From the NCBI GenBank assembly GCA_963680875.1, contig OY804580.1, forward strand, positions 93,649,353 to 93,713,352: a stretch of 64,000 nucleotides of DNA, read 5' to 3'. Below, in pieces: positions 5,579 through 64,000 of this stretch (position 1 is the first letter of the stretch; every line of letters starts with the position of its first letter). The notes beneath the pieces were generated by a model. It had not been told where the DNA came from. It did not search any database and saw nothing but the letters and a program-made list of their open reading frames with translations. Made by a program: the position numbers and the translations under genes. Origin of the DNA: Bathymodiolus brooksi (lineage: Eukaryota; Mollusca; Bivalvia; Mytilida; Modiolidae).

Positions 5579-6182
5579 ATGGCAACATATGCAGAAGATA
5601 TTTCCTCCTGTGCTAAAACTAACTATGCTCGTCTAGGCCATGCATCTCAAAGTTTAATACCAAAGTTGTTGCAGCAATTGCTTCTATTTTATGAGCCAAC
5701 AAATAAAATTACAAATGATTGTTTAAGCAATAGTTATTTGTCGAACAAATTGAATGCAAATGAGTGGATTAATATCCGTAAGGCTAACACAGATGGTTAT
5801 GCAGATTTTGATATACCATTGATTTATAAGCTACTAAGAAACCTCAAACTTATTCCACCACCAACAAGAGGATGGGAACCACCGGGAGGTCCAAAGTTAA
5901 CAGAAACAACAATTGGTGATGACCTTGAGAGATTTCGAAAATCACGAAATGAAATATTACATAGAGGAAATATAAATGTTTCAGACCGAGAGCTGACAGA
6001 ATATTTCACACAATTCAAAGGCATAGCACAAAGATTAGAATTGACGTTGCATAAGAAGAAAAATGAATTGGTCTTTGAATTTCAAAATCTAGAAACCTGC
6101 TGTATGGATGGCATTTCTGAAAAAATTCTTGAAAATCTTGCTAAGAAAGAAAAAGAGTTCACACTACTAAATCGAATATCAG
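5579..6182 (+). CDS. exon 1: DZIP3-type HEPN domain
   Basis: This exon encodes residues 1-201 and ends at a clean donor (TCAG/GTAAAG) in phase 1. The protein begins [20 protein letters not shown] and has the features of the DZIP3/hRUL138-like HEPN family: an NYARL segment near the start, [13 protein letters not shown], then PPTRGW. The hallmark RNEILH follows at residues 123-128 (R123, H128), matching the Rx4-6H catalytic motif of HEPN nucleases. A charged, probably helical tail (about 150-195) leads to the splice site. There is no hydrophobic leader, so the start is cytosolic. The ATG at 5579 is the first in frame and gives a complete domain; an upstream non-coding exon cannot be excluded. 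HEPN members may be RNases or only oligomerisation modules, so activity is inferred from the intact motif. Confidence 0.88.
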
Positions 6183-9100
6183 GTAAAGTTGTAATTATTA
6201 ATGAATGTTATAGATGGATCATTTTCACATTGGTATCAATATTCATAGAATGATAACCACATCGGTGGCATAATCGTTAGCGTTCTCGTCTGGAGTGCAG
6301 TACATTGTGGGTTAGAGCCCTGGTCGGGTCAAACCAAAGACTAAAATTAATATTTGTTGCTTCTCTGCTAAGCACACAACATTAAGGAGAAAGAGCAAAG
6401 ACTCGTTGGCTCGGAATCAGGATAATGTGTCTGAGTGGGGCGACGTGTCTATTCACGGACTGTTGTTTCAGTGAACTAGCACTATACAAATCCAACTCAG
6501 CATGTTGGTCTAGTACAAAGCAGACCTCATCATCATCTCATTGAAAATTAACTTGTTCTCGCCATGATATACCGGTACATGTAGCTGAAAATTGCTGAGT
6601 TGGCATTAAACAACAATCACTTACTCACTCATAAAATGAAAAAAACATCAGATACAAAATGTACCAGTAACAATTGTAATTGATTGTCACTTAAGCATGT
6701 TAAATTTAACAAATGTAATTTGAACTTTAAGATACAGAGAATTTCATGATTTATGGGCAGTAATAAAACTCACCACTTTATATTAATTATTGGTGATAGG
6801 CAGTTAGGCACTGATTACCTAAATAGATGTAAATCTCTTACTACTTGTACCATAGGTTCATGTCCATGATGTGATTTTGTGATTTTGTTGAAACTATGCC
6901 AGTGAAAACCACAAAATTAAATGTATTATTGAATAAATATGATGTGATTTTCAGTACCCAATTGTGGAATTTTCTTTATGGAGAATTTGACTTGTTTAAC
7001 GTGGTACATTATCAAATATTTGGCTTATCACAGACTAAGAAATACCAGTAGATAGAAACTACCTTCTTATACAGGGTCCTGAGCTTTGGATGAAAATCAC
7101 TGAAATATTCATACATATGAACATTGTCATTGAAGTAACCATATTACAGACTTGGAGATTGTCTGAAAAAATTGTATTGTTTTTACATTTGTATTTAAAT
7201 CTACAGGTACAGCAACCCCTGGATTTTTTTCAATAGAGATTACCAAAAATTGATGTCAGATGGGAATTAATGTACATGTAGGGAAACTAATCTGATTGGT
7301 TTCCAAGACAAACTTAGTTTAATGATTTAGGGAAAAACATTAAAATGTATATGTGCACATATGTGTAAATGAAGGATAGATTTTTATAGATGTTAAATGT
7401 TATTGTTAGAAATATAATAATATTCTCCCTTTAAATTTCAGAATATTTGATATCCCTTATAAGAAAAGCAATGTCCACAGTTTCAAGAAGTAAGTGAGAT
7501 TTAATTCTTCTTAATTTTCATCAGCCTAACATTATACTTAAGATGTAGTAAGAATATGAACTTAAGATGTTTATGTTTTATTGGTGTTAGCCACTTGGAT
7601 TCTCTTTCCAGATATTTGCCTTTTCCATATAAAATGGATTTGATGATTTAGAGGAGGATTGGGTAAGGGTTATAGTGTTAATGCCACGTTCAACAATATT
7701 TCAGTTATATCGTGGTGGTCAGTTGTATTGGTGGAGGAAACCGGAGTACATGTACCTGGAGAAAACCACTGACCTATCGCAAGTCACAAACTATCACATA
7801 ATGTTGTACGAGTACACCTAGCCAAGAACGGGATTTGAACTCGCAACTTTAGTGGTGATAGGTACTGATTGCACAGGTAGATGTACATTTTAAGTCCAAC
7901 TACCATGCGAAATGTCAGCTCTTGTTTCAGTGAAGATTGAAATTGTTTATATTTATATTCTTCAGTCTTGATAAAGAAACCACTGCAAGATGTTTGTTGT
8001 GTTGAGGGAGAGATTGCTTGCTTGTCCTGCGAAATTATCAAGGATGAAACTGCTGTAACTTGGTATAAAGATGATGTTGAGATACTCCCTTCTACTGATA
8101 TTATTCTGAAAATGCATGGTAAAATTCATGAGCTGTCAATACCAAGAACAGAAATTAAAGATGGAGGAAGGTACTCGATAAAAGTAAAACAAAGTACTAG
8201 TGAGGCCAAATTGACAGTAAAAGGTAAATATTTTTAGCTCATCTGAGTCAGATGCTGAAGTGAGCTTTTCTGATATAAAAGTCTGTCTGTCTATCCATCC
8301 ATCTTTGGGGGGTCTGTCCATCCATATTTATGTTTAGACTTTTCACAATTCTAACGTCTTTAGAACCACTGCATACCCAGACACCAAACGTACATCAAAG
8401 GTTCTTTTCTAGGAGGTCCTAAAGAAGTCTCGTTTCTTTTAAGAGTGATTTAAAGTCCAAGATGATAGCCCTACCCTCCAATTGGTAGTGACATTTTAGA
8501 CTTCTTCTCTTGATGGAATCAATTGAAACTGGCTGTCCCAGCCTTTGATTTGCTGTAACATTTTCGGCTTGTTCTCCAGAAATATTGTATTTCAAGTCAT
8601 CCAACTTGCCTCTAGTGCTTTTTAAGAAGTAGTGTTACTTTGAGGAGTCATTTGAAATTCATGATTGCAGACTTTGCCTCTGATTGACTGAGACATTTAT
8701 GATGTTTTCTCCAGAATGAGTGCATGACAAATCACCAGACCTACAAAAAATTTCCTCTTGGGATCCCCAAGAAGAATTGCTACAGAGCAACTCTGTATTC
8801 AAGATGGCTGCCCTGGTCTCTGGTTGACTGAAGCGTTATTGATTTCTGCTTCACAACAACTACATGCCAAGTCACCAAAGTAGCCAGAAATGTTATCTTG
8901 GGAATCTCTCAGTGATATTCGTCCTTTCAGGTCAATTTTAATTCCAATTTGGCTGACGTAGATCGAAAAATAAAATAGATATTATAGTGTACATGTAAAT
9001 TGATTATCTTTGAAGTGACATGAAAGAATTATTTTTTTGTTTTATTTTACCAGCTTTAATCAGTAGTCACCTTGTTGATACAACATGTTTGGAAGGCAGC

Positions 9101-12100
9101 ACCATTGTATTGAATTGTGAAGTTTCTGTAGAAGACCTAGGTGGTAATTGGTACAAAGATGACTCTGTAGTGGTTCAGTCTAGTCAAATATATCCTACTG
9201 TAAACAGCAGAATACATCAACTTAATATATTCCAAAGTGAAATTAAAGATGGTGGAAAATATGTCTTCAAGATAAGAGACAAAATTAGTTCAGCCATATT
9301 GACTGTGAAAGGTACAACAAGTTATTGTTGTCATTTTGTTTATTACAGAGATGGAAATATTTCCTCTGCTCGGGTATTTCCTCTTTTTTTGAAAAAAAAT
9401 ATTTGGAAATAAATGTGTCAGCTAGAAAATGAAGGTATTAGGGCACTGTATAGTGAGTTTCCTGTTATTTTTTCATCAGTCAACACTTTCATCTCTGCTC
9501 TTACTTTTAACTAAAACAAATCTTTCATTTGGTTTCATTTCAATGAATCAGATCTTCTTTTACATAAAGTTTTCCTGGAAATTCTTGATTTGGGTGTTCC
9601 TAATTTATATCTAACAGCCTATTAAAACTTCTGGAAAGGCATTGTAGTTATATGCCAGTAGACCACTTGCAGATTTTCAACTTTGATTCTCTAATTATGC
9701 ACTTTTCAGGAGTTATTTCCATTTACAGTGGTACCATACACTTCAGGTAAAATTTGATCTGCTCGTTTAATTTTCTTATTTTTTTGGCAGTGTGTTTGAA
9801 TATATCCACTGTAATAAATATCAAAATTTTAGCAAATTCCAACCAACAGATTCAGAGCTATGAATTCACTAGCCACATAGCAGTTTTTCTCTCTGTGGTT
9901 TTGATCACCGAGATGCTTGAAATCTGCATACAAACATCATATGATCAAAACTTTCAACTGATTTTAAAGAGTTATCTCACTGTAGAGTATGGTACCCCCG
10001 TAAACAGACAAAAGGATCCCCTATCTTTCATGCAAAGTTCAATGAAATTAAGATATATTTCCCCCCATAATAAATTCATAATTTTAATGCTGTGACAACT
10101 TGTGAATTTTCTATTTGATATCAAATTATCCCCTGATTTTTTTAAGGGTTCAAATATCTACAAATTATGAGAGAATTACACTCAGATTTGTTGTCCTTCC
10201 ATTGTTCTTGCTAGAATGGGTACCGTTTTGCCAATCGTAAGGGAAATAATTTGTATAAAAAACATATAAATTTTAGATTCAAATCGAGAATGTGTAAAAG
10301 ATCTAATAGCTACATCATATAAGCTTACAGGGAATATATGTTAGATGACAGTTTTATTTTTATATTTGTATATGTTTTATTTTAAACAGCTGTGATTACA
10401 AAACACCTTGAAAATGTAACATGTATTGAGGATCAGAGCTTATCTTTAGTTTGTGAACTTGCTGAGAAGGACATATCTGTCACCTGGCTAAAAGATGAAA
10501 AAGTTATTGAAGCATCCAAAAACATCGTCCTAGAGATTCATAACAATGCTCATATTTTGAAATTTAAGAAATTGAGCAAAAATGATGGTGGAAAATATGC
10601 ACTGACGGCTAGCGGAAAGAAAACTGAAGCAGTTGTACTTGTTAAAGGTTTGTTTTTACATTTGAACTCCAGTAGCTCAAACTTGGATGACTTTAACATC
10701 ATAGATCTCTCAATCTATGTTTTAGTTCTGCCAGCTTTGTAGTTAATTTTCATTAAGCAAAGCCCTGATTTATATAAAAGTATAGATGCCAACCATTACG
10801 ATTTTTCCGTAATTTTTACGAATTTCGGGCCAAAATTACGGTGTTACGGTCAACAGTCTACTTGTTACGGATTTCCGATTATTGCCGGCCCGGAACCGTT
10901 CCCATTTAAATATCATTGTGATCATTTAGACACTTCATTTTCTGTTAAAATCGCATAATGATAAGCGCTTGAGGGATTCCGATTATTAAATACTTTTGGG
11001 TTTCTCTGGACTTTCTATAGTAGAAAGCGATCTATCCATTTTTTGTTCGATCCCTAGTAGTTAATGAACACAACACGTTTTTGTCAATTTCACGATGTCT
11101 GAGGGAACGAGTGAAGCTTCTGCAGGAAAGAAAAGGAAACTGGGACAATTAATATTGTATTGAGTTCCCTTGCCTTATGAAATTGACACAGGAACATTAT
11201 GGCCTATTGCAAATATTGCAAACAGGACTTTTCCATTCACGACGGTGCCACAATGTAGTACGATTATGGTAAAATTTTATGAAAAATTATTATTACTGAA
11301 AAAAATCACAAATTACTGACATCTCAAATTGTTCTTACTGATTGCACCAAAAAGGGGTTGGCATCTATGTAAAAGTCAAATAATCCATATGTTCTTGTAG
11401 TAATAAATCAGTCCATTTTAAACTCCAACACCAATTCATATGGAAGTGTCAATTATTAAATAAATTACTGAAACAGAAAAAAACAATTGAAACGGTAACA
11501 TGGTCAGATGTTTACCATCATAGTTAACAGTATTAAAATAAAATTTGAATTAGTTATTACATAAGTTAATGTCTTTTTAGCTCACCTGACCGAAAGCCAT
11601 ATGAGCTTTTGACATCACTTGGCATCCGTCGTCTGTTTATTTTTCACATTTTAATCTTCTCCTCTGAAACTGCATGGCCAAATGAACCAAAACTCGGTAG
11701 GAAGCATCTATGGAAGGTCCTCTATAAGATTACCTCATTTCATCCTGTTTGGACAAAAACATGGTCGGTATGGGGAATTCATGTTTCTGATTGGCCAATT
11801 AAAAAAAGTCTCCTCTAAAACCATTTTGCCAAGTAAATTGAAATTTGGTAGGAAGCACCTATGGATAAAGTTTCATCAAAACAAAATGACAGATCCTCTA
11901 GTTATTTTATAGTTTTTTTATACCGGAGTTGAATAAAATCAAAATAAAAAACTGCTATCAAGGTTGATTTTGCAAAAAATCTTTTGGTCAATAGAAATGC
12001 AGGTGAGGCACATTTTATTGGTTAGAATTGTAGAATATGTGTGACTTCTTTCATTTAGCTAAATCAACAATACCAGGCCAGATTTTACAGATGAATGAGA

Positions 12101-15100
12101 AAGACAAAGAGATGTATTTAGATATAATTAAGTCTGGAACTGAACGGAGATACTACATACGACTGATGATTGTTGGTGAGAATGGTGTTGGAAAAACTTG
12201 TTTGATGCAACGACTTTTAGGAGAAGACATTGATGATGTCACTAGTACTGATGGGATTGATGTCGTAATCCGTAAATGCAAAATCAGACTTAGTGATGGA
12301 AAATGGATACTCAATGAAGGTATTTTTCATATACAGTTTGACAGTATATGTTTTGTGTTTATATTTGGGAAATATAACTTTTCATCATTATAGCCCCCAC
12401 AACGAAGTTGTAGGGGGGTATACTGGTTTCACCATGTCCGTCCGTCTGTAGACAAATCCTATGTGGTACGATAACTTGAGTTGTGTTTCTTAGAATCTTT
12501 TAAAATTTTATCAGCTGCTTACTGGTGAAGAGAGGAGGATCCCTTTCTTTTTTGACGATTTTCACTTTTGCCGTTCCAGAGTTATTGGACTTGATATGAC
12601 GGAAAATAGGATTTTTACCCTATGTCGTATGATAACTTGAGTAGTCTTTCTTTCATTTTTGGTCAGAACAATCAGTAATGTTTTGGTTATGGAAATAGGT
12701 TGGACAGATGTGGGGAGCGGGGGTATATCTTAGTGAGCTGTGCTCACAGTAATACTAGTTATTACTGTAATTTCACAAATTAATATCTACATATATTATT
12801 AAAGGGAAATTTCGTGATTTTTTACATGTTAGCTAAATATGTTCCTGGTGATATAAAATACATATTCACAAAGTTTTATCGACATATTTCCACAAATAAC
12901 GAAGCAAATCGCAAATTTGTAATTTTAATTTCAAATTTTTCAACCAGGCTGTGACGTTTTAAACTAAAAATGCATTGTGGGATTAAAATTTTAAGTCTGG
13001 GTCGCTGATGTTAAATTCGCTTCATTTAAAGCGCTCAGAGGACTGTAATTTAAATCTAATAACCGTTGGAAAATTAAATACTGAAGTGAACAGCTACGTA
13101 CCTTTTTGACAAACAACTATTTTAAATGAACAAAATGTTTCATTTCCTTTATATTTACAATGGAAAGAGTGTTTTACAACAGTCACCTATATTCGCTATA
13201 TATCGGATCCCTTTGATCGTAAGCTATATTGAATTGTTCATTTTTATCTTGATTTTTTTTTGTGCCCCATCAGAATGATGTAACAACAACCAAAATTATG
13301 AAATAAAGCAGGGTGAACAGGGCAGGGTAGAAATTCTTCTTGCAAAATAGACAAAAAACCATTCGTATGCAATTTTTCCTTATAGAAATAGAAATTAAAA
13401 TAAGTTTATTAACCAAATCAGGGCCCCAGGAGGGCATATACAAATAACAATTATGATTGATACACAACAACAATACATCAAACTAAATATTCGCGGTGAA
13501 ATATCAATAATTGTGATGAACAAATTTTTTAGGACTATTCTGAGATTAATCAGAAGGGTCCGCCAGTTCGAAAGACGTGATTAAAATAAACAAAATATGT
13601 TACGCTTTGTTTTTGTATAATAAACTTTAAAAGTATTTATAATACTCATCGTCTGTAATTGTCAAATGAAATCTATTACAAATTATATGTTTACATAATC
13701 CTCTCAATTATATGGCTTCCTACCCTGTAACTTTCTGTGCTTTTAGCTTATGTGTATCTTTATTGTAGCGCATGCACGATCGATTACAAAGTATGATCTT
13801 ACTGAATAATGTCATTAAAACAATTTTGCCCCGTAGTATAGGCCTTTTTGGATTTTTTTTTAGCGAATTCAGGGCATTGTTACGATGTCCGTTCTTTTTT
13901 TAGCTTAATTTTGTAGTTCTTCAATTTTGGAAAAAAATCTTTTGTAAATGTGTCTCATTAAAGACGAACCTTTCCCCCGATTCATTTGTTTTGCCATAAT
14001 CTATAGAAGCAAAACGTAAATCTGCAAAAAGTGATTGTGTAATAAATTCATATATTTAGAATAATAAGAAAAATAAAAAGAATTACCATCAAGTTAAACA
14101 ACCGTACGCCTGACAAGCCATATCAACACTGAATGAGGACCCTGGTTTGTCACACTTGTTTTGGGGCGTGGTGGTATTTAGATGTCACGAGATACTTGGT
14201 ATTGAGATGCTATCAAAATGGCGACTTCCATGTATCGTTGACAGAATTTTAAAATCGATTTCATTCCCTTATCCAACATAATAAAACGCTAATATACATA
14301 TAAACATCCATATTTATACATCAGGAAAAACATATAAAAACATATTTTTTTTGTGAAGTTTCCCTTTAATTGATAATTTTACGGTAATTTGATTTGTTCA
14401 ATACCCATCACGTGGTGTTCTGTATTTTGGCAGGTTGACTTTTGCGGATTGCACGGCTACTAAAAATAGATTAAAAAATTCCAATATTTTCATGACGTTT
14501 AACGATTGAACATGATTCTGGTACTGCATTTGGCAACTCATTTGAACTTCAAGCACTGTCAAGTTCGCAGACAGAGACTGTATTTAATGATCTGTTACCT
14601 GACAATGATGGTGTAGATGACTTTCTTAAATCTCATGATATTCCTGCACAAGAAACATGTAGTAATGTACCCATTTCTTAGTCTATGTGTCAATTTCCAG
14701 TACCAATAATTACTAACTGTCAAAATATCACCATAAACTATAACATTTTCCCTAGGAAATGATTATCATTCATGTCACTACATACATTTTTGTTTTGTTG
14801 TTATTCCTGTTGAATAGATTGTTTGTTGTTAAAGTTTGGGTCTTATATTATTTTTATACGACCGCAAAATTTTTGGGTCGTATTATGGTATGGCGCGGTC
14901 GTCGTCGTCTGTACACATTTTGTTTCCGTTGTCTTACTTTAGTTATAGTTTCCAGTAGTAAGTACACCTAGTCCCGGATGAATATCCATTTGTAGATCTT
15001 CTGTTTCATGTTTTGCGTGGCAATTAATAATATAAAAAATATGTGATGGGCATTGAACAAATCAAATGACAGTAAAATTATCAATTAATAATATAAAAAA

Positions 15101-60100: not shown

Positions 60101-63100
60101 GTATTTTCTTTTATTTCATATGTGCTTCTCGTTGTATTTGTCTCCGTTTTCATTGCTTCGTCTTTGTCCCTTGACTCATGAGTTTGGGATTTTGCTTTAA
60201 CCGTGATTACCCTTGATTTTACTTTCACTTAGTAACTACATAAGCGCCTACTGTAGATTTGGAATTCATTTTTCACTTTGATGGTTCATCATATAGCATT
60301 GATATTTGTGTAAACATTTGACATGTTTCGTGTCCCTGATTCATTGAATGTGATTTCCTCTATTTTTGTTTATATATATATATATATGTGAAATTAAAGG
60401 GGTGTTCTTTGCAATGACCAATAACATTTAAGTTTTGCTTTATTTATTTCGAGCACAAATTTCTAGTAATTTATTGGGCATAATCTATGGAAAAAAACAA
60501 GAACCTACACCCCGTAAGGAACACAAAGTTAACACCCCATTCTCCACATCTCATTTTCGAGACTGACGCTTTGTTCATGGTATCTTCTCTGGCGTAGCTT
60601 GTAGAATTTGGTTTGTCTTATAATTTTGAAAGTTTAGGATCAGTAATTTTCTGAAGATAAGCTTTTGTTGCAAGTAATCGGCCCAAAAGGAGTGATGTTG
60701 TGAATTTTTGCATCCGATATTAGAGTTGGGCGAGAGTGTTTGCTAAACCTACACCGTATATATCTACTTTAATCAAAGCTTCATAAACCATGATAATGTC
60801 TTGATTCCGTACACTAATAATTTGGATAAACTCGGTCCCTTTATTACTACAAATGCAAATGAACTTACCATGTTTGCAAATCAACCTCTTCGAAACAGAC
60901 AACCCACGCATCACATAGCAATCACCCCGAATGCTCCGTTGGATGCGGTGATCTATGGTCGGTCCTCTATAAAGATTGCTCATTTTGTCCCGATTGGTTA
61001 ACAAACATGGCCGCCACAGGTAATTCTTGTTTTTGATTGGTCGATTTCTAAAAATCTTCTCTGAAACCGCTTTGCCAAATGATCCGAAACTTGGTAGGAA
61101 GCATCTATGGAAGGTCCTCTATAAAGATTGCTCATTCCATCCCGATCCGTTAACAAACATGACCACCACAGGCAATTCTTTTTTCTGATTGGCTGATTTT
61201 TTAGATTCATCTGCTCTGAAACCGTTTGGCAAAATGAGCCGAAACATGGTAGGAAGCATCTATGGAAGGTTCTCTGTTGCAATTGCTCATTTCGTCTCGA
61301 TCTATTGTCAAACATGGCCACCACAGACAATTCTTGTTTCTGATTGGTTGATTTCTAAGCAAATTTCTTCTCTGAAACCACTTGTCTAAATGAATCGAAA
61401 CTTGGTAGGATGTATCTATGGGCGGTCCTATATAAAGATTGCTCATTTGATCCCGATCCATTAACAAACATGACCACCACAGGCAATTCTTGTTTCTGAT
61501 TAGTCGATTTCTAAAAATCTTCTACTCTGAAACAGCTTGGCCAAATGGACTGAAACGTGGTAGGAAGCATCTATGGAAGGTCCTCTATGGGAATTGCTCA
61601 TTCCATTTTGATCCGTAAGCAAACATGGCCGTCATAGGCAATTATTGTTTCTTATTGGTCGATTTCTAAAACAGCTTTTCCTCTGAAACCGCTTGGCCAA
61701 ATGATCCGAAACTTGGTATGAAGCATCTATGGAAGGTCCTCTATAAAGATTGCTCATTCCGTCCCAATCCGTTAACAAACATGGCCACCACAGGCAATTC
61801 TTTTTTCTGATTGGCTGATTTTTTAGATTCATCTGCTCTGAAACCGTTTGGCAAAATGAACCGAAACATGGTAGGAAGCATCTATGGAAGGTTCTCTGTT
61901 GCAATTGCTCATTTCGTCTCGATCTATTGTCAAACATGGCCACCACAGACAATTCTTGTTTCTGATTGGTTGATTTCTAAGCAAATTTCTTCTCTGAAAC
62001 CACTTGTCCAAATGAATCGAAACTTGGTAGGATGTATCTATGGGCGGTCCTATATAAAGATTGCTCATTTGATCCCGATCCATTAACAAACATGACCACC
62101 ACAGGCAATTCTTGTTTCTGATTAGTCGATTTCTAAAAATCTTCTACTCTGAAACAGCTTGGCCAAATGGACTGAAACGTGGTAGGAAGCATCTATGGAA
62201 GGTCCTCTATGGGAATTGCTCATTCCATTTTGATCCGTAAGCAAACATGGCCGTCATAGGCAATTATTGTTTCTTATTGGTAGATTTCTAAAACAGCTTT
62301 TCTTCTGAAACCGCTTGGCCAAATGATCCGAAACTTGGTATGAAGCATCTATGGAAGGTCCTCTATAAAGATTGCTCATTCCGTCCCAATCCGTTAACAA
62401 ACATGGCCACCACAGGCAATTCTTTTTTCTGATTGGCTGATTTTTTAGATTCATCTGCTCTGAAACCGTTTGGCAAAATGAGCCGAAACATGGTAGGAAG
62501 CATCTATGGAAGGTTCTCTGTTGCAATTGCTCATTTCGTCTCGATCTATTGTCAAACATGGCCACCACAGACAATTCTTATTTCTGATTGGTTGATTTCT
62601 AAGCAAATTTCTTCTCTGAAACCACTTGTCTAAATGAATCGAAACTTGGTAGGATGTATCTATGGGCGGTCCTATATAAAGATTGCTCATTTGATCCCGA
62701 TCCATTAACAAACATGACCACCACAGGCAATTCTTGTTTCTGATTAGTCGATTTCTAAAAATCTTCTACTCTGAAACAGCTTGGCCAAATGGACTGAAAC
62801 GTGGTAGGAAGCATCTATGGAAGGTCCTCTATGGGAATTGCTCATTCCATTTTGATCCGTAAGCAAACATGGCCGTCATAGACAATTATTGTTTCTTATT
62901 GGTCGATTTCTAAAACAGCTTTTCCTCTGAAACCGCTTGGCCAAATGATATGAAACTTGGTATGAAGCATCTATGGAAGATCTTCTATGGAGAATGCTCA
63001 TTTCGTTTTGATCCATTAACAAACATGGCTGCCACAGGCAATTCTTGTTTTAGATTGGTCGATTCCTAAAAATTCTTCTCTGAAACTGCTTTGCCAAAAT

Positions 63101-64000
63101 GAACCGAAATTGGTGGGAAGCACTATGGAAGGTTCTGTATTAAGATTCCTTAAAGCAGAATGAAAGGTGAGCAACACAGGCTCAGCCCACTGAGCCTCTA
63201 GTACTAATAAAAGTTTGACAATGTCAATGTCTTTTACTAATAAAAGTTTGACAATGTCAATGTCTTTTACTAATAAAAGTTGACAATGTCAATGTCTTTT
63301 ACTAATAAAAGTTTGACAATGTCAATGTCTTTTACTAATAAAAGTTTGACAATGTCAATGTCTTTTACTAATAAAAATTTGACAATGTCAGTGTCTTTTT
63401 TACTAATAAAAGTTTGTCAATGTCAATGCCTATTATGGATGCAGAGTTAAGCTTCTTGAAAATGAATTTTATTTACACATATTGACTTCTAGATAATACG
63501 TAAGTTATTATATTTCCAATATTTTTATATGCAGAGATTTATTTATATTTCTGTATATGTTTTTTTTACTTTTTAGGGGGAACTCAGTGAACAAAAATCT
63601 TTGTTTGTCAGAGATCTGAATTCAATCTTAAAAAGGCAGAGTAAACGTAAACATATAAGGAACATCCAATATTTATCAAACAAAGAGCCTTTACAAAAAG
63701 ATCTTTTAAAATTGCAGTCGGCTATATTTAAAACAGCAACTGAGATGTCAAGTTGGGGTAAAGAACTGCCGTTAAGGTGGATTCATTTGGAAACTACATT
63801 GGACGGTGAACGTGATGCTGGATCTAACATACTACCATTCCATCTTGTTGTTAAGTTAGCTAAGGATAGCTCCCTACCTACATCTGATAATGAGGAAATT
63901 ATTTTATTTCTAAGATATCAGCATGAATGTGGACATGTGATATTTTTCAAAGATCTGCCTGATTATATTATACTGAATCCAAGATGGCTGATTGATGCCT
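5579..64000 (+). CDS. HEPN-Ig-Ig-Ig-Roc-COR protein gene, 3' partial
   Basis: Gene-level entry for ten exons: 5579-6182, 7442-7489, 7966-8223, 9054-9311, 10390-10647, 12059-12319, 15600-15734, 18584-19000, 56619-56755 and 63577-64000. Every join has AG/GT borders and keeps one frame; introns 1-8 are all phase 1 and intron 9 is phase 0. The 933 codons seen give HEPN (about 1-200), Ig domains (218-303, 304-389, 390-475), a Roc GTPase with P-loop at 515-522, DFAGQ at 698-702 and TGTDK at 786-790, then COR from about 793. The gene continues beyond the window, so C-terminal domains are unknown. Family knowledge: Roc-COR modules are GTP-dependent dimerising switches; HEPN domains with Rx4-6H are often RNases. 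I infer a cytosolic, nucleotide-regulated sensor or effector, possibly immune. No 5' UTR exon or promoter could be identified. No gene name is recognised. Confidence 0.85.
6258..6640 (+). mobile_element. tRNA-derived SINE, type 2, full length
   Basis: The head looks like tRNA: GTGGCATAATCGTTAGCG (A-box region) and GGGTTAGAGCCCTGG (B-box region). The body includes GGAATCAGGATAATGTG and GACTGTTGTTTCAGTGA. The tail is GAGTTGGCATTAAACAACA followed by ATCACTTACTCACTCA. This head, body and tail set is typical of a SINE family abundant in bivalves. It lies in intron 1 just after exon 1. Its body and tail serve as the reference for the split copy at 16096/17370. It is not a functional tRNA gene. Confidence 0.75.
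6641..7441. other. intron 1 remainder
   Basis: AT-rich intron sequence; no repeat or exon recognised besides the acceptor of exon 2. Confidence 0.5.
7442..7489 (+). CDS. exon 2: 48-nt linker exon
   Basis: This 16-codon exon is too short to be found as an open frame by itself. A good acceptor (CCCTTTAAATTTCAG) precedes it and a strong donor (GTAAGTG) follows. It enters and leaves in phase 1 and translates to [16 protein letters not shown], joining the HEPN exon to the first Ig exon without a stop. Skipping it would also keep the frame, because its length is a multiple of three. It is therefore either a constitutive linker or a cassette exon. Confidence 0.65.
7666..7913 (-). mobile_element. 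tRNA-derived SINE, type 1 (RUDI/MetaSINE-like)
   Basis: On the + strand it reads from the tail inwards: TTAATGCCACGTTCAACAAT, ATTTCAGTTATATCGTGG, GGTGGAGGAAACCGG, then the B-box complement GGGATTTGAACTCGCAAC and finally CCAACTACCATGCG of the tRNA-like head. The central core (TTCCTCCACCA on the SINE strand) and the GTTAAACACCA-type tail are conserved in bivalve SINEs described as RUDI or MetaSINEs; which family applies is from memory. It ends about 50 bp before the exon 3 acceptor. Confidence 0.75.
7966..8223 (+). CDS. exon 3: immunoglobulin domain 1
   Basis: The exon is exactly 258 nt (86 codons), phase 1-1, and encodes one I-set-like Ig domain. Visible landmarks are the B-strand cysteine (LSCEI), the C-strand tryptophan (VTWYKDD), KIHELSI and the DGGRYSIKV turn before the F strand. 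The F-strand position that normally holds the second disulfide cysteine is not a cysteine. An extra cysteine pair (VCCVEG) sits near the A' strand. This pattern resembles intracellular titin/obscurin-type Ig domains rather than secreted receptors. Acceptor TTCTTCAG and donor AAAG/GTAAAT are clear. A bivalve SINE ends about 50 bp upstream of the acceptor, and a HINE-like element begins 7 bp after the donor. Confidence 0.88.
8231..8965 (+). mobile_element. decayed HINE-like element
   Basis: Begins TTTTTAGCTCATCTGAG with a partner AAGTGAGCT forming a 5' stem, followed by a GTCTGTCTGTC stretch. The body has about four decayed units of about 170-180 bp (ACATCAAAGGTTC, AAATTTCCTCTTGGGATC, AAATGTTATCTTGGGAATC). 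No 3' hairpin is left. It starts only 7 bp after the exon 3 donor and fills most of intron 3. Confidence 0.5.
9054..9311 (+). CDS. exon 4: immunoglobulin domain 2
   Basis: Again exactly 258 nt and phase 1-1, so this is a duplicate of the neighbouring Ig exons. It has LNCEV (B strand), GNWYKDD (C strand, tryptophan kept), RIHQLNI and DGGKYVFKI (F strand, cysteine absent), ending ILTVKG. A cysteine is kept in the A' region (TTCLEG), as in domains 1 and 3. The acceptor is TTTTATTTTACCAG and the donor AAAG/GTACAA. An ATG at 9020 opens the same frame upstream of the acceptor, but the homology starts only at the splice site, so the exon start is used. Confidence 0.87.
9312..10389. other. intron 4
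   Basis: AT-rich, no repeat family recognised. A 113-codon frame at 9754-10095 is not similar to anything I know and is probably chance. Confidence 0.5.
10390..10647 (+). CDS. exon 5: immunoglobulin domain 3
   Basis: Third 258-nt, phase 1-1 Ig exon. Landmarks: VTCIED (A' cysteine), LSLVCEL (B-strand cysteine), VTWLKDE (C strand), AHILKFKKL and DGGKYALTA (F strand without cysteine), ending VVLVKG. The A' cysteine, the B-strand cysteine, the W-x-K-D pattern and the DGG-x-Y turn are shared by all three domains. The acceptor is TTTTATTTTAAACAG and the donor AAAG/GTTTGT. The next exon begins the GTPase domain, so the three Ig domains form a spacer between HEPN and the switch. Confidence 0.87.
10782..11369. 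mobile_element. hAT-like deletion derivative
   Basis: Ends are inverted (ATAGATGCCAACC at the left, GGTTGGCATCTAT at the right) and are flanked by the same 7-mer TAAAAGT at 10775-10781 and 11370-11376. Inside, on the + strand, a start [15 protein letters not shown] (11095 on) is followed in another frame by [13 protein letters not shown], a CxxC zinc-finger signature like the N-terminal BED-type fingers of hAT transposases. Only 588 bp remain, so the copy is non-autonomous. hAT elements usually make 8-bp duplications; the 7-mer may have lost one base. Confidence 0.65.
11574..11902 (+). mobile_element. short HINE-like element
   Basis: Starts CTTTTTAGCTCACCTGACC with TGAGCT as 5' stem partner and GGCATCCGTCGTCTG, and ends CCTCTAGTT. 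Inside are two units with CTCCTCTGAAACTGC and TCTAAAACCATTTTGCC. The 3' hairpin has been lost, but both termini remain recognisable. Confidence 0.6.
12059..12319 (+). CDS. exon 6: Roc GTPase, P-loop and switch I
   Basis: The 261-nt exon (phase 1-1) encodes residues 476-562. After a short helical linker ([14 protein letters not shown]) comes the first beta strand (YYIRLMIVG) and a textbook Walker A/G1 motif GENGVGKT at 515-522, then CLMQRLL. Switch I follows as TSTDGIDV, with the likely Mg-binding threonine T539; STxGIDV is typical of Roc domains of ROCO proteins. The acceptor is TTCTTTCATTTAG and the donor GAAG/GTATTT. The Roc fold continues in exons 8 and 9. STAND-like ATPases are less likely because of the later DFAGQ and TGTDK motifs. 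Confidence 0.9.
12391..12760 (+). mobile_element. HINE-like element, family 2
   Basis: The 5' end is a hairpin: CCCCCACAAC, GAA, GTTGTAGGGGG, followed by GTCCGTCCGTCTG. The 3' end is GTGAGCTGTGCTCAC (hairpin) followed by AGTAATACTAGTT. Two internal units share TATG-TCGTA/GGTACGATAACTTGAG (near 12463 and 12628). Sequence differs from the AGCTCACC family, but the plan (5' hairpin, GTCCGTC, internal repeats, 3' hairpin, CTAGTT) is the same. Confidence 0.6.
12799..14369. mobile_element. TTAA-flanked inverted-repeat element, non-autonomous
   Basis: The left end TTAAAGGGAAATTTCGTGA and right end TGTGAAGTTTCCCTTTAA are inverted copies, and similarity continues for about 60 bp (ATATGTTCCTGGTGATATAA against ATATGTTTTTCCTGATGTAT, read inwards on opposite strands). 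TTAA at both borders suggests a TTAA target, as used by piggyBac-like elements; the superfamily is not certain. The 1.57-kb interior has no transposase-like frame. It fills about half of intron 6. Confidence 0.65.
14487..14681 (+). other. orphan open stretch in intron 6
   Basis: A 65-codon open run ([20 protein letters not shown] at the start, then an acidic segment with [15 protein letters not shown]) has a coding look with balanced composition and ends in TAG. No clear splice acceptor in phase 1 precedes it. It may be a fragment of a retroposed gene, or an alternative terminal exon. I do not recognise the protein. Confidence 0.3.
14849..14990 (+). mobile_element. 5' end of another HINE-like family
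   Basis: TTTTTATACGACCGC and GGGTCGTATTATGG form a 5' hairpin (ATACGACC with GGGTCGTAT), followed by CGCGGTCGTCGTCGTC. I recall this terminus as a very abundant repeat in mussel DNA. Only the 5' part is seen; no 3' end was found. Confidence 0.5.
15099..15218. repeat. long imperfect palindrome (foldback/MITE)
   Basis: Left arm AATACAGCCTTTCTATTCAG and right arm CATAGAAAGGCTGTATT are inverted and extend through GTCGATGCAAGTT / AACTTGTATCGAC. Inside is a second, perfect palindrome, GTATATCGACC with GGTCGATATAC (15131-15166). The whole 120 bp can fold into one hairpin. Confidence 0.65.
15319..15568 (+). mobile_element. tRNA-derived SINE, type 1
   Basis: Same family as the copy at 7666 but on the + strand: GTGATCATATGGCAGTTTG (A-box side), GTGAGTTCGAATCTCGATC (B box), CCTCCGGTTTCCTCCACCA, GAAAGTGGCGTTAAACATCA and an AAAC-type tail. 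The tail ends about 31 bp before exon 7, so the branch point of intron 6 must lie in or next to SINE-derived sequence. Confidence 0.8.
15600..15734 (+). CDS. exon 7: charged insertion in the Roc domain
   Basis: A 135-nt phase 1-1 exon encodes residues 563-607: highly charged, no recognisable fold ([20 protein letters not shown] at the start, [11 protein letters not shown] at the end). Borders are TTATTTTAG and ACTG/GTGTGT. It lies between switch I and the DFAGQ motif, where a normal Roc domain has only a few tens of residues, so it is part of a long inserted loop. Being a multiple of three and symmetric, it could be skipped without frame loss. A SINE tail ends about 31 bp upstream of the acceptor. 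Confidence 0.75.
15797..15965 (+). mobile_element. HINE-like 5' fragment
   Basis: Begins TTTTTAGCTCACCTAGCC with partner GCGAGCTTTTGCCATCAC, then decayed satellite sequence (CTCAACCAATTTGAACAAAG). No recognisable 3' end; the right limit is approximate. Confidence 0.5.
16096..16239 (+). mobile_element. SINE type 2, 5'-truncated, left half of split copy
   Basis: Matches the SINE at 6258 from GGCTCTGAATCAGGATAAT through GTTGATGTAGTACAAAG and stops abruptly at ACATTATTATG where the next element begins. The missing tail reappears at 17370. Confidence 0.75.
16240..17369 (+). mobile_element. HINE-like element, family 3, inserted in a SINE
   Basis: Begins with a hairpin (CCCCTTCG, AACGAAGGG, then AGACATATTGT) and ends TTCCTAGTT. 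It splits a type 2 SINE, so both ends are fixed by comparison with the intact copy at 6258. The core is a tandem array (16330-17270). No coding frame. The 3' hexamer CTAGTT and the 5' hairpin are shared with the other HINE-like families of the window. Confidence 0.65.
16330..17270 (+). repeat. tandem units rich in nuclear-receptor half-sites
   Basis: Seven units of variable length (about 90-160 bp) share GGTCAATGATATTTGGTATG, GTGGGTGCATGACCATAAG and CTTGACCTTTGACCTCAAGG. The last word contains TGACCTTTGACCT, a perfect DR1, in five of seven units (near 16430, 16586, 16705, 16865, 17232); the two at about 16985 and 17075 read TGACCGTTGACCT. Confidence 0.8.
17370..17448 (+). mobile_element. SINE type 2, right half of split copy
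   Basis: GTCATTGAAATGTAACTTGT, CTCACCATGATATAGC and a decayed ACATTGAACATTAATCACTC tail continue the SINE interrupted at 16239. Confidence 0.7.
17449..17781. other. intron 7 spacer
   Basis: AT-rich, no gene. ACTCGCTTGACCTAAGTGAG near 17651 is a short hairpin-like word, possibly another decayed element end. Confidence 0.4.
17782..18037 (-). mobile_element. tRNA-derived SINE, type 1
   Basis: Tail side GGTGTTTAATGCCACTTTCA, core GGTGGAGGAAACCAGAG, B-box complement GGATTTGAACTCATAAC, head complement CCATGCGATCATGACC. Same family as 7666 and 15319, minus orientation, in intron 7. Confidence 0.8.
18038..18583. other. intron 7, 3' part
   Basis: AT-rich with T runs; no repeat or exon recognised. 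Confidence 0.5.
18584..19000 (+). CDS. exon 8: insertion end plus Roc G3 (DFAGQ)
   Basis: The 417-nt exon encodes residues 608-746. Its first two thirds (to about 690) are acidic/basic low-homology sequence continuing the insertion of exon 7. The last third returns to the GTPase: [20 protein letters not shown] with G3 motif DFAGQ at 698-702, then [18 protein letters not shown], the strand and helix after switch II seen in ROCO proteins. The acceptor is TTTCTGTTTGTAG and the donor GGAT/GTAAGT. The following intron is 37.6 kb, so the GTPase fold is interrupted by the largest intron of the window. A SINE starts about 30 bp after the donor. Confidence 0.88.
19031..19290 (-). mobile_element. tRNA-derived SINE, type 1
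   Basis: Tail side TGGTGTTTAATGCCACTTTC, core TTGGTGGAGGAAACCAGAG, B-box complement GGGGTTCAAACTCACAAC, head complement CATACGATCACGACC and TGACGGCCCC. It begins about 30 bp after the exon 8 donor. Confidence 0.8.
19391..20583. mobile_element. possible inverted-repeat element
   Basis: ACATTAACATATATTTC near 19394 is partly mirrored by GGACAAATGTTAATGT near 20570, and GTCC-rich words (TTCGGACAACTA, GTTGGACAACCG) recur inverted inside both ends. A purine-rich GGGAGAAGT repeat (19545-19630) and a long palindrome (19916) lie inside. Ends and class are uncertain. Confidence 0.35.
19916..19993. repeat. near-perfect palindrome
   Basis: Arms of about 34 bp: CTTGTTTCTGGTAAAAAAAA, then TATACCTAGATACT at the left, inverted as AGTATCTAGGTATA and TTTTTTTTACCAGAAACAAG at the right, with one single-base difference and a loop of under 10 nt. 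Likely a fixed foldback element. Confidence 0.8.
21040..36803 (+). repeat. satellite array, about 636-bp unit, about 25 copies
   Basis: The word GGTCCCTGGGTGGGTCC or a close variant recurs near 21464, 22102, 22737, 23373, 24009, 25281, 26553, 27177, 27811 and onward, at 620-640 bp. Each unit is a composite of two related sub-blocks, each with CCTCTGAAAC or CCTCGGAAAC, an AACCAAAC word and CAAGATGG. One unit near 35600 has lost about 65 bp and one near 36690 carries a small insertion (AAATAATTTTT). The many frames in both strands are by-products of the repeat. Confidence 0.9.
24700..32300 (+). repeat. two near-identical 3.8-kb higher-order copies
   Basis: A block of six units is present twice with a constant offset of 3802 bp: 24808/28610, 25444/29246, 25748/29550, 26384/30186, 26999/30801 and 27642/31444 start the same private variants. 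Only scattered base differences were seen (for example GCCCTGCC at about 25955 against GCCCCGCC at 29757, and GATGGTCAC at 27868 against GATGATCAC at 31670). Private changes such as the shortened GCCGATTATGCAAATT near 26756/30558 are in both copies. Confidence 0.85.
36804..38902 (+). mobile_element. inner HINE-like element
   Basis: Starts TTTTTAGCTCACCTGACCC with CGTCCGTCCGTCCGTCCGTT and ends CCAGGTGAGCGATTACAGG, GGGAGCCTCTAGTT. Left flank GCATAATGATGAGC and right flank AACATGTATTACAGGATTTT are consecutive in an intact satellite unit of the middle element, so this copy inserted into that array. Its own units are about 310 bp (AGCTCAAATTTTAACTGCAG near 37070, 37385, 37700, 38005). Confidence 0.7.
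38903..39881 (+). repeat. middle element continued after the inner insertion
   Basis: Resumes the 636-bp satellite at ACATGTATTACAGG and runs one and a half units, then a different block (CTTAGTTTAACATAGGACCC, AGATGGCCGCCACAG) leads to the 3' hairpin. Confidence 0.7.
39890..40420 (+). repeat. about 170-bp tandem units of the outer element
   Basis: Three units share CAAGATCTACCTACCCTGC or a close variant, GTAAATC-[CT]GA-TACCCA and TTTTCGTCTTATAT. The array is cut at CTCAATAACTAT by the reverse-transcriptase element and resumes near 42690. Confidence 0.75.
40421..42690 (+). pseudogene. Penelope-like reverse transcriptase, broken
   Basis: Read across stops and frameshifts, the + strand gives an RT protein. 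In order it has an N-terminal part with [35 protein letters not shown] and [12 protein letters not shown] (40424-40887), [13 protein letters not shown] (about 41025), [12 protein letters not shown] (41239), [18 protein letters not shown] (41697) and the catalytic YIDDVLS (about 41836). A thumb-like region to the stop at 42318 includes [18 protein letters not shown]. The PADK and [10 protein letters not shown] blocks favour a Penelope-like element, though the clade is uncertain. No GIY-YIG endonuclease follows. In-frame stops at 40885 and near 41357 and frameshifts near 41750 and 41945 disable it. The 3' part (GCCTGTACCAAGTCAGGG at 42555, CTCGGAGTTCAGTA) resembles a tail I recall from mussel repeats. 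It interrupts the outer element. Confidence 0.75.
43100..43955. other. spacer between two HINE-like elements
   Basis: AT-rich intron sequence. A 70-codon minus frame at 43497-43709 is not recognised. It contains the small hairpin element at 43781. Confidence 0.45.
43781..43904. repeat. imperfect hairpin element of about 124 bp
   Basis: ATACTATCATTGACATTG and AATGGACTTCTCATCGCATCA split into the left arm (43781-43832) are mirrored by TTGATGCGAGATT, GAGAAATCCATT and ACGATAGTAT at the right. Loop of about 15 nt. Likely a tiny MITE or foldback. Confidence 0.55.
44265..54235 (+). repeat. satellite array, 332-bp unit, about 30 copies
   Basis: Each unit holds two related halves of about 166 bp: one with CCAAGATGGCCGCCACCGC and ACATAGATTAACATTGGACC, the other with TTCAAAATGGCGGCTACGGC and GGACTTAGTTTAACATTGG. 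Both contain TTGGACCCTATGGGAAAA. Unit starts are near 44598, 44930, 45262, 46258, 46921, 47253, 47916 and onward. Copies are nearly identical in the middle and more diverged at both ends, as expected from unequal crossing-over. The 119-codon frames overlap from unit to unit because 332 is not a multiple of three; they are not genes. Confidence 0.93.
47250..50570 (+). repeat. 1659-bp higher-order duplication within the 332-bp array
   Basis: Five successive units recur with offset 1659: variants starting at 47737, 47916, 48248, 48580 and 48912 reappear at 49396, 49575, 49907, 50239 and 50571. Shared private changes include ATGGCCCTCTACAAACTTTA with GTTCATTAG before it, AAACTAAACTGCC and GCAGTACTTAG. 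Confidence 0.85.
54471..54620 (-). mobile_element. SINE, left half, split by a HINE-like element
   Basis: Reads GGTGTTTAGCGCCACTTTCA, GCTATATCATGGCGACCAG, GAAGCCGGAGTACCCGG, GAGTCAAGTGCACC and stops where TTTTTAGTTCACC begins. Related to the type 1 SINEs but a distinct subfamily. Confidence 0.75.
54621..56375 (+). mobile_element. HINE-like element inserted in a SINE
   Basis: Starts TTTTTAGTTCACCTGGACC and ends AACCAGGTGAATGATACAGG, CTTGAGAGCCTCTGGTT. It contains about five diverged units of the same 332-bp type as the neighbouring large array (ACATAGATTAACATTGGACC recurs; one unit near 55215 has a deletion joining AACCAAAC to GATCAGAAATCC). It resembles a low-copy version of the 43956 element. 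Confidence 0.75.
56376..56478 (-). mobile_element. SINE, right half (tRNA-like head)
   Basis: GTAATTTACAAAGCCGGGCA, B-box complement CGGGCACGAACCCACACC, then AGCTACCTAACTCATTGAGC and CACCCTGGCC. Joined to 54471-54620 it gives one complete SINE. Confidence 0.75.
56619..56755 (+). CDS. exon 9: Roc G4 region
   Basis: The 137-nt exon joins exon 8 in phase 1 and leaves in phase 0, the first change of phase in the gene. It encodes residues 747-792: [14 protein letters not shown], a polar stretch, then [24 protein letters not shown] occupies the place of the G4 base-recognition strand; Roc domains usually read VGTHxDK there, and here the motif is TGTDK, so the canonical aspartate spacing is altered. 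The acceptor is TTTCTGATTTCTTTAG and the donor TTGAG/GTAATC. The exon is isolated between two very long repeat-filled introns. Confidence 0.85.
56807..57075 (+). mobile_element. tRNA-derived SINE, type 1, best preserved
   Basis: GGCGGCCGTCTTGGTCGTGA, GTATGGTAGTTGGATT, B box TAGTTCGAATCTCGATTAG, CTGGTGGTTTTCTCCGGG, GGTTTCCTCCACCAATAAAA, GTGTTAAACACCATC and an (AAAC)n tail. It is the clearest copy of the family and lies about 50 bp after exon 9. Confidence 0.85.
57433..57560 (+). mobile_element. SINE head with Ser/Leu-tRNA-like A box
   Basis: GGCCTTGATGGCCGAGTGG, TTATGGTTG and a decayed B box (GGGTTTGTGTCTCGATAC). TGGCCGAGTGGTTA is a classical class II tRNA start, but the structure is decayed. 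A SINE fragment, not a tRNA gene. Confidence 0.5.
57600..57860. repeat. dispersed repeat recalled from mussels
   Basis: Contains ACCGAAAGGGTAATCAGA, AAAAACTGGGGGTGAAC, GGTAATCAGTTACTGCTC and CTACATGTGGCACCCGTC. I recall near-identical words as a very common Mytilus genomic repeat. Recognition is from memory only. Confidence 0.5.
57897..58213. repeat. 33-bp minisatellite, left part
   Basis: About 9.6 copies of a unit reading TTTGACAATGTCAATGTC then TTTTACTAATAAAAG. Because 33 is a multiple of three the array is open in one frame ([11 protein letters not shown] repeats, 57784-58218), which does not show it is coding. The array is cut by a HINE-like element and resumes at 63204. Confidence 0.92.
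58661..59117 (+). repeat. left arm of inverted-repeat element
   Basis: Contains GGTGTAGGTTTAGCAAACAC and AACATCACTCCTTTTAGGCC, ends at GTGTTCCTTATATGG. The arms look above 90% identical in inverse orientation by eye. Confidence 0.85.
59360..60010 (+). pseudogene. Penelope-like RT relic, heavily decayed
   Basis: Fragments in shifting frames match the element at 40421: [15 protein letters not shown] (compare [15 protein letters not shown]), [19 protein letters not shown] (compare [19 protein letters not shown]), [31 protein letters not shown]. The catalytic YIDD has become YIDV, and stops and frameshifts are frequent. It is bracketed by the 456-bp inverted arms. Confidence 0.7.
60495..60950 (-). 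repeat. right arm of inverted-repeat element
   Basis: Inverse of 58661-59117: GAACCTACACCCCGTAAGG, GGCCCAAAAGGAGTGATGTT, TTTGCTAAACCTACACCG, ending GTTGGATGCGGTG. Confidence 0.85.
61021..63160 (+). repeat. 622-bp tandem units, about 3.4 copies
   Basis: The same stretch (TGATTTTTTAGATTCATCTG) recurs at 61193, 61815 and 62437, a period of 622 bp. Each long unit contains about four sub-blocks with CTCTGAAACCGCTTGG, AAACTTGGTAGGAAGC, ATCTATGGAAGGTCCTCTAT and AAACATGGCC. Confidence 0.9.
63204..63432. repeat. 33-bp minisatellite, right part
   Basis: About seven further copies of the unit interrupted at 58213, with one base lost in the third copy and one gained near 63395, so no long frame survives on this side. 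Confidence 0.9.
63577..64000 (+). CDS. exon 10: COR domain start, cut by window end
   Basis: The exon opens after TTACTTTTTAG in phase 0 and stays open to the edge (141 full codons, residues 793-933). It reads [20 protein letters not shown], then a helical region, PLRWIHLE, and [20 protein letters not shown] followed by [15 protein letters not shown]. The last part is the conserved COR pattern in which a helix ending in G-x-[IV]-x-[FY]-F is followed by a strand with ILNPxWL. In ROCO proteins COR follows Roc directly and mediates dimerisation. The rest of COR and any C-terminal domain lie to the right. Confidence 0.87.

Follow-up and report, generated by a model that had tools for sequence, protein, structure and literature searches.

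A predicted gene of Bathymodiolus brooksi that places a DZIP3-type HEPN domain, three Ig domains and Roc-COR in one reading frame

A 64,000-nucleotide stretch of the genome of the bivalve Bathymodiolus brooksi (assembly GCA_963680875.1, contig OY804580.1, positions 93,649,353 to 93,713,352 of the forward strand; hereafter the window) raises the question of whether a single gene can join a DZIP3-type HEPN domain, three immunoglobulin (Ig) domains and the Roc-COR tandem of the Roco GTPases, and what a protein so built might do. A sequence-only reading of the window had proposed ten exons with consistent splice phases that encode these domains, in this order, up to the start of COR. We rebuilt the gene model and obtained one joined frame on the + strand, from 5579 to 64000 and open over 933 codons, in which 9 of 9 introns run from GT to AG; introns 1 to 8 are in phase 1 and intron 9 is in phase 0. 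As a prediction from the DNA, the observation of a one-frame HEPN-Ig3-Roc-COR gene was confirmed as correct and well supported, while the interpretation that accompanied it is, as a whole, partly supported. The exons are as follows (aa, amino acids).

5579-6182, + strand: exon 1, start codon and DZIP3-type HEPN, aa 1-201, with RNEILH at aa 123-128 (Pfam PF18738, E 1.2e-10; tblastn best E 5e-56, 10 proteins)
7442-7489, + strand: exon 2, 16 codons linking HEPN to Ig1, with an in-frame ATG inside (splice sites and frame alone; no tblastn match)
7966-8223, + strand: exon 3, I-set Ig domain 1, 86 codons, phase 1-1 (Pfam PF07679; tblastn 1e-13, 40 proteins)
9054-9311, + strand: exon 4, I-set Ig domain 2, 86 codons, phase 1-1 (Pfam PF07679; tblastn 1.6e-10, 27 proteins)
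10390-10647, + strand: exon 5, I-set Ig domain 3, 86 codons, phase 1-1 (Pfam PF07679; tblastn 9e-11, 30 proteins)
12059-12319, + strand: exon 6, first part of Roc, with the P-loop GENGVGKT (G1) and an STDG segment (tblastn 1e-31, 109 proteins)
15600-15734, + strand: exon 7, 45 codons, an insert within Roc (splice sites and frame alone; no tblastn match)
18584-19000, + strand: exon 8, Roc G3/switch II (tblastn 2.4e-20, 118 proteins)
56619-56755, + strand: exon 9, Roc G4-type segment TGTDK, entered in phase 1 and left in phase 0 (tblastn 1e-9, 93 proteins)
63577-64000, + strand: exon 10, cut by the window end, end of Roc and first half of COR-A (tblastn 1e-29, 96 proteins; Pfam PF16095 under its cut-off)

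Exon 1 opens with the ATG at 5579, the earliest Met codon that follows a stop in this frame; by alignment, it coincides with the start position of Mytilus HEPN proteins. At the other end the frame is cut by the window end at 64000, inside COR. Exon 9 was first chosen by its motif from 83 phase-compatible candidate segments, and homology support for it came afterwards. Because exons 2 and 7 are both phase 1-1, the frame is kept if either is omitted, and the fusion does not depend on them. The three Ig exons, each of 258 bp and phase 1-1, are identical to one another at 28 to 35 of 86 residues.

A Pfam run on the joined translation agreed with the proposed order of domains. I-set (PF07679) was found over three stretches at E 3.4e-31, Roc (PF08477) at E 8.3e-15 (55.5 bits against a cut-off of 27) and HEPN_DZIP3 (PF18738) at E 1.2e-10 (41.8 bits against a curated cut-off of 27). 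COR-A (PF16095) scored E 2.2e-6 and 28.1 bits, below its 35.3-bit cut-off, with only profile positions 1-77 of 143 covered because the window ends there. The NACHT or NB-ARC ATPase expected of an NLR/STAND sensor was not seen: NACHT reached only E 0.12 (12.6 bits, cut-off 26.7) at the P-loop, where Roc is found instead. No Pfam-A row for DED or TRADD was seen at E<=0.05, Pfam coverage of the TRADD-N type described from oyster not having been checked, and it is Roc that follows Ig3. Pfam gave no leucine-rich repeat (LRR), kinase or ankyrin in the visible part of the protein, NCBIfam gave no match above cut-off, and no hydrophobic segment rose above the transmembrane threshold used. Among solved structures, the closest by sequence to the Ig part was titin (7.7e-25), and the closest to Roc was LRRK2 (2.7e-9). 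The best 60 of 111 PDB sequence matches at E<=0.01 were Ig proteins (titin, obscurin, myosin-binding protein C and similar) and small-GTPase or Roco proteins, with no entry named HEPN among these 60.

Homology support for the exons came from 142 relatives (denoted by P numbers), which were used as tblastn queries against the unspliced 64-kb window at E<=0.01. The search made no use of the predicted splice sites, but it does depend on the query, since it was the joined protein that had originally brought up these relatives. Eight of the ten exons were matched, on the + strand and in order, with best E values from 5e-56 to 1e-9; exon 10, which carries the end of Roc and the beginning of COR-A, was matched by 96 of the 142. 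The remaining matches were three single high-scoring segment pairs (HSPs) on the - strand, in satellites, at E 0.004-0.005, and we rejected chance exons as an explanation against a background of only these three. In the Roc part G1 and G3 are conserved, and G4 is of the type usual in this family (TGTDK). Of the 92 relatives that passed the coverage filter, 88 had the P-loop pattern, 87 had DxxG and 86 had TxxD at G4.

We counted junctions in BLASTP alignments of the joined protein with the 142 relatives, counts that include loose, repeat-driven alignments, above all on the HEPN side. The Ig3-Roc junction was spanned in 33 relatives, 20 of which have both an Ig domain by our own profile and a Pfam Roc. 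Junction 1/2 was spanned in 5 proteins, including two without HEPN (P0016 and P0028), and junction 2/3 in 10, of which only P0003, from Mytilus edulis, has both HEPN and Ig. P0003 is the one true counterpart of the HEPN-Ig junction in the set.

These counts bear on whether the window holds two adjacent genes, or alternative transcripts, with exon 1 encoding a HEPN protein and an Ig-Roc-COR protein beginning at the exon 2 ATG or in an unseen exon. The exon 1 frame does stay open past its donor, up to a stop at 6253, exon 2 does contain an in-frame ATG, and none of the 25 Ig-bearing proteins among the 118 Roc-region matches has HEPN. Intron 1 has AATAAA at 6762 and 6932, but the hexamer is common here, with 11 copies across introns 1-5. 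The GT donor of exon 1, however, shares its phase with the Ig exons that follow, and the HEPN-Ig junction is known both from P0003 and from published oyster proteins (PMC8195603). Two genes or alternative transcripts are improbable in our judgment. We also sought an ectodomain or transmembrane first exon by tblastn with the 142 relatives, and no further + strand cluster appeared at E<=0.01.

If the fusion is a single gene, to what kind of protein does it belong? The homologue searches returned 18 matches for the whole protein, 118 for the Roc-COR part and, among 1314 candidates, 9 for the HEPN part. Many of the 18 were Ig proteins from other animals. The best 91 Roc-region matches (P0019-P0109) were all from Mytilus, followed by Lingula, corals, bacteria and a few more from Mytilus. 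Ten proteins gave strong HEPN profile matches (P0001, P0003, P0004, P0008 and P0137-P0142), all of them from Mytilus and identical to the window HEPN at about 30-57% of positions. The suggestion that the gene has a bivalve family setting was borne out. Family expansion would also fit a decaying or silent copy, but 933 codons over ten exons carry no stop or frameshift and the catalytic motifs are intact, which makes such a copy hard to credit at all.

Neighbouring architectures were found for each part. The first consists of Mytilus Ig-Roc-COR proteins such as P0028, P0038 and P0046, in which I-set domains lead into the same Roc-COR and which can be aligned through the Ig-Roc junction. Our own Ig profile matched 25 of the 118 Roc-region proteins, whereas PF18738 was listed for none of the 118, so these proteins differ from the window protein in the lack of HEPN. 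Six of the 25 (P0028, P0058, P0065, P0071, P0101 and P0115) have a predicted transmembrane segment, and 19 do not. In the six the segment precedes the Ig run, and Ig and Roc-COR would therefore share the cytosolic side; by predicted layout the six are receptor-like Roco proteins. A similar Cys-rich N-terminal stretch is present in P0046, P0047, P0053, P0071 and P0114, of which only P0071 passes the transmembrane threshold.

The second neighbour has HEPN before Roc-COR in one gene model, without Ig: P0137 (LOC127708924, M. californianus) and P0142 (LOC143044801, M. galloprovincialis). Like the window protein, both have a DZIP3-type HEPN at the N-terminus and Roc-COR behind it, but their Roc-COR is strongly diverged. 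They were found via the HEPN search only, with Pfam Roc at E 0.003-0.005, under the cut-off. A Roc-COR profile of our own, built from 19 relatives and the window and searched against a database of the 142 proteins, matched P0137 at E 4e-63 (positions 7-605) and P0142 at E 1.3e-58 (positions 7-604). An AlphaFold2 model of P0142 had a mean predicted local distance difference test score (pLDDT) of 54, fair in the Roc-COR part, and only that part was used. In Foldseek, 26 of 26 matches at E<=0.001 were Roco proteins (CtRoco, LRRK1, LRRK2 and archaeal Roco), a result that may be favoured by the Roc-COR relatives contained in the alignment behind the model. P0137 carries HEPN twice, both copies before the diverged Roc-COR. 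The C-terminus of P0137 and P0142 looks Death-like by eye only, with no Pfam Death domain there at E<=0.01.

The third neighbour is P0003 (HEPN 2-208, Ig 223-311), which shares HEPN then I-set at the N-terminus with the window protein but has one Ig, and a RIG-I-type helicase and RIG-I C-terminal domain in place of Roc-COR. Judged by its domains, P0003 is a putative RNA sensor that carries its own RNase-type domain. Oyster (Crassostrea gigas) proteins with HEPN, Ig repeats, DED and TRADD-N have been published (PMC8195603); they likewise begin with HEPN followed by Ig repeats and form an expanded bivalve immune-type family, but there the Ig repeats are followed by DED-TRADD-N and by WD40 or cGAS-like domains, where the window protein has Roc-COR. 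The HEPN exon of the window ends in phase 1 and can therefore splice before any phase 1-1 Ig exon. Phase-1 exon shuffling would offer a simple route to HEPN-Ig-RIG-I-like receptor, HEPN-Ig-TRADD-N and HEPN-Ig-Roc-COR proteins alike.

In a Roc-COR tree the window joined a node of 45 of 90 sequences, 5 of them with Ig, and since the nearest four supports were 0.82, 0.44, 0.41 and 0.17 we make no claim on its Roc-COR group of origin. In an Ig tree, Ig1 and Ig2 were nearest to Ig domains of the Mytilus Ig-Roc-COR proteins (supports 0.27-0.64), and Ig3 fell elsewhere, beside an Ig of a Styela obscurin-like protein (support 0.60).

The active-site-type motif bears on whether the HEPN domain could act as a ribonuclease. 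The window HEPN keeps Rx4H as RNEILH, with the Asn after the Arg that is typical of DZIP3-type HEPN, in conserved surroundings (GDDxERxRxxRNxxxHRGN), and R123 and H128 are invariant across an 11-row alignment. The tally covers the window and 11 copies from 10 proteins; the domain of P0142 lacks its beginning, and lower-scoring second matches in P0138 and P0139 are excluded. Both residues were kept in 11 of these 12, all but the first copy of P0137, which reads RHEIIN and has lost the histidine. An AlphaFold2 model of the HEPN had a mean pLDDT of 80 and a predicted template modelling score (pTM) of 0.72. Foldseek of this model against PDB returned 30 matches, none at E<=0.001 and no HEPN among them, and VIA-align ranked HEPN toxins first, weakly and tied with unrelated chains.

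The fusion could be real and its HEPN non-catalytic, a platform for dimerisation or RNA binding, with Roc-COR as a nucleotide-gated oligomeriser and the signal coming from a C-terminal Death- or CARD-type domain beyond the window. CARD (PF00619) is listed in 10 of the 118 Roc-region matches, and the best CARD stretch was C-terminal in the five that were scanned (P0061, P0066, P0074, P0077 and P0107). Between COR and CARD, P0061 (E 1e-4) and P0074 (E 3e-9) have a degenerate HEPN-like stretch without the R/H motif, and the loss of histidine in one P0137 copy points the same way. The window, however, keeps RNEILH and its surroundings, as do 11 of 12 copies the motif itself, and the motif is retained in 194 of 202 pearl-oyster proteins (PMC9646362). 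We regard a non-catalytic HEPN as rather unlikely.

The reading that we prefer, and to which we give an even chance, is that of a single bivalve gene for a cytosolic multidomain immune sensor or effector in which the dimer state of Roc-COR controls a paired HEPN, possibly an RNase. In HEPN RNases such as RNase L, Ire1 and Csm6, two domains pair to build a composite active site. We propose the following model because HEPN RNases act as pairs and the Roc-COR dimer state follows nucleotide. The Ig tract, the C-terminus beyond the window, or both would bind a partner or ligand, and nucleotide binding or hydrolysis by Roc would alter the Roc-COR monomer-dimer state. Binding of the ligand or partner would shift Roc-COR to the dimer, the direction of the nucleotide effect being left open. 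The dimer would put two HEPN domains side by side to form a composite Rx4H active site, and the paired HEPN would cleave host or invader RNA. For the window protein we infer the RNase activity, its coupling to the dimer, the trigger, the immune role and the cytosolic location. The sequence-only reading had called Roc-COR a GTP-dependent dimer switch that could control a HEPN effector across the Ig tract, a putative spacer; the switch is retained in our model, but it may run the opposite way, since Roco proteins have been proposed to be monomers when GTP-bound and dimers when GDP-bound (PMC6337361).

A more specific version is that this is a GTPase-gated HEPN ribonuclease of animals, in which Roco nucleotide state or dimerisation would turn on RNA cleavage and a swappable Ig tract would serve as the recognition arm. 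We put this forward tentatively and would sooner bet against it than for it. Equally tentative is the analogy in which Roc-COR would replace the NACHT, ankyrin/2-5A (2',5'-oligoadenylate) or CARF sensing of other HEPN systems. If true, HEPN would join kinase and Death domains as a class of Roco effector. That HEPN precedes Roc-COR both with Ig (the window) and without it (P0137 and P0142) suggests, from the predicted proteins, that Roco GTPases may be a second, recurrent HEPN switch in molluscs.

The claim that the layout resembles other defence sensors was supported by DZIP3-HEPN-NACHT/CARD/DEATH proteins (PMC3710099), the oyster HEPN-Ig-DED-TRADD-N proteins (PMC8195603) and the Mytilus HEPN-Roc-COR proteins. 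Animal DZIP3/hRUL138 HEPN domains are described, in the passage that covers them, as fused to tetratricopeptide repeats (TPR), Zn-ribbon, RING, ankyrin, CARD, NACHT, DEATH and LRR, and not to Ig or Roc (Anantharaman 2013, PMC3710099). Large HEPN and HEPN-NACHT expansions are reported in pearl oyster, where Rx4-6H is kept in 194 of 202 DZIP3-HEPN proteins. In the HEPN-NACHT proteins, as in the window, a DZIP3-type HEPN lies N-terminal to a nucleotide-driven oligomerisation switch, but this is a NACHT ATPase where the window has a Roc-COR GTPase (PMC9646362). DZIP3-type HEPN is also frequent in coral proteins like NOD-like receptors (NLRs; PMC10236652). The window shares the Roc-COR tandem, with P-loop, DxxG and TxxD, with the Roco family (LRRK2, DAPK1, CtRoco), but in its visible part has HEPN and Ig instead of LRR, kinase or ankyrin. 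Aplysia Toll-like receptor (TLR)- and MyD88-like proteins bear Roc-COR (PMC9334734). Bacterial AP-GTPase-COR (Roco) proteins have been described as switches in biological conflicts whose variable position can be filled by at least 24 exchangeable domains, TIR and caspase among them; HEPN is not named in that section of the text (PMC8195603).

The order of domains had been put forward as undescribed, and this stands in part. The three-part HEPN-Ig3-Roc-COR order was in none of the homologue matches, and neither a HEPN-Ig-Roc-COR nor a HEPN-Roc-COR protein was found in the parts of the open-licence PMC literature surveyed (figures and supplements outside its scope). Each neighbouring pair nevertheless has precedent, because HEPN-Ig (published proteins and P0003), Ig-Roc-COR (25 of 118) and HEPN-Roc-COR (P0137 and P0142) all exist. 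The first homologue searches scored the best 7989 and 7996 candidates by shared words, at 0.55-1.75 times the query length, and since scoring covered only candidates sharing most words, the lack of the full order among the matches is weak evidence of absence. The predicted novelty is thus limited to the three-part order only, relative to the searches made, and the gene is a new combination of domains within an established class, that of modular immune sensors in bivalves. The finding connects the Roco proteins, of which LRRK2 is the most familiar, with immune switches that bear effectors, such as the bacterial AP-GTPase-COR proteins (PMC8195603). It also raises the testable question of whether Roc nucleotide state controls RNA cleavage; how DZIP3-type HEPN is switched is not established in the portions of the literature surveyed.

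The case has three main weak points. The gene is predicted from genomic sequence alone; the C-terminus, together with the dimer-forming second half of COR, lies outside the window, beyond 64000; and the gene model is weakened by a 37.6-kb satellite intron with long identical stretches. That intron and its arrays, located with Tandem Repeats Finder (TRF), are as follows.

19001-56618, + strand: intron 8, 37.6 kb, containing satellites in two large arrays and a remnant that resembles a reverse transcriptase
21416-35606 and 35766-38708: satellite array in intron 8, 312-bp unit (TRF)
44150-54253: satellite array in intron 8, 332-bp unit (TRF)

Within these arrays the block at 25100-32700 repeats at an offset of 3802, with 98.6% identity over 25101-28900 and an unbroken run of 1911 bp, and the block at 47260-50840 repeats at an offset of 1659 with an unbroken run of 1922 bp. 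Such repeats reflect either very recent duplication or an assembly artefact.

Satellites in introns 8 and 9 could hide an assembly error, so that exons 9 and 10 come from a paralogue and the Roc half is misjoined. Arrays with identical runs of 1911 and 1922 bp, as in intron 8, are typical ground for collapse or misjoining. Exons 8, 9 and 10, however, stand in the correct order, on the correct strand and with compatible phases, and the relatives align over junction 8/9 in 95 of 142 cases and over junction 9/10 in 68 of 142, a result that a paralogue of the same family would also give. A misjoin seems to us very improbable.

A further satellite array, with a 311/156-bp unit, lies just upstream of exon 10 at 60951-63147 and, when shifted by about 618 bp, aligns to itself at 95% over 1573 bp. 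On the + strand at 40417-42318 is a chain of open reading frames (ORFs) with a YIDD-type segment, which looks like a decayed Penelope-like reverse transcriptase. Three pieces of it had no Pfam match, and across five ORF pieces taken from other parts of the window Pfam found nothing at E<=0.01. The window is AT-rich, with many satellite arrays and a GC content of 32.5-39.4% in 4-kb steps, and upstream of the gene, at 344-1592, it holds a tandem array of 3.8 copies of a 322-bp unit.
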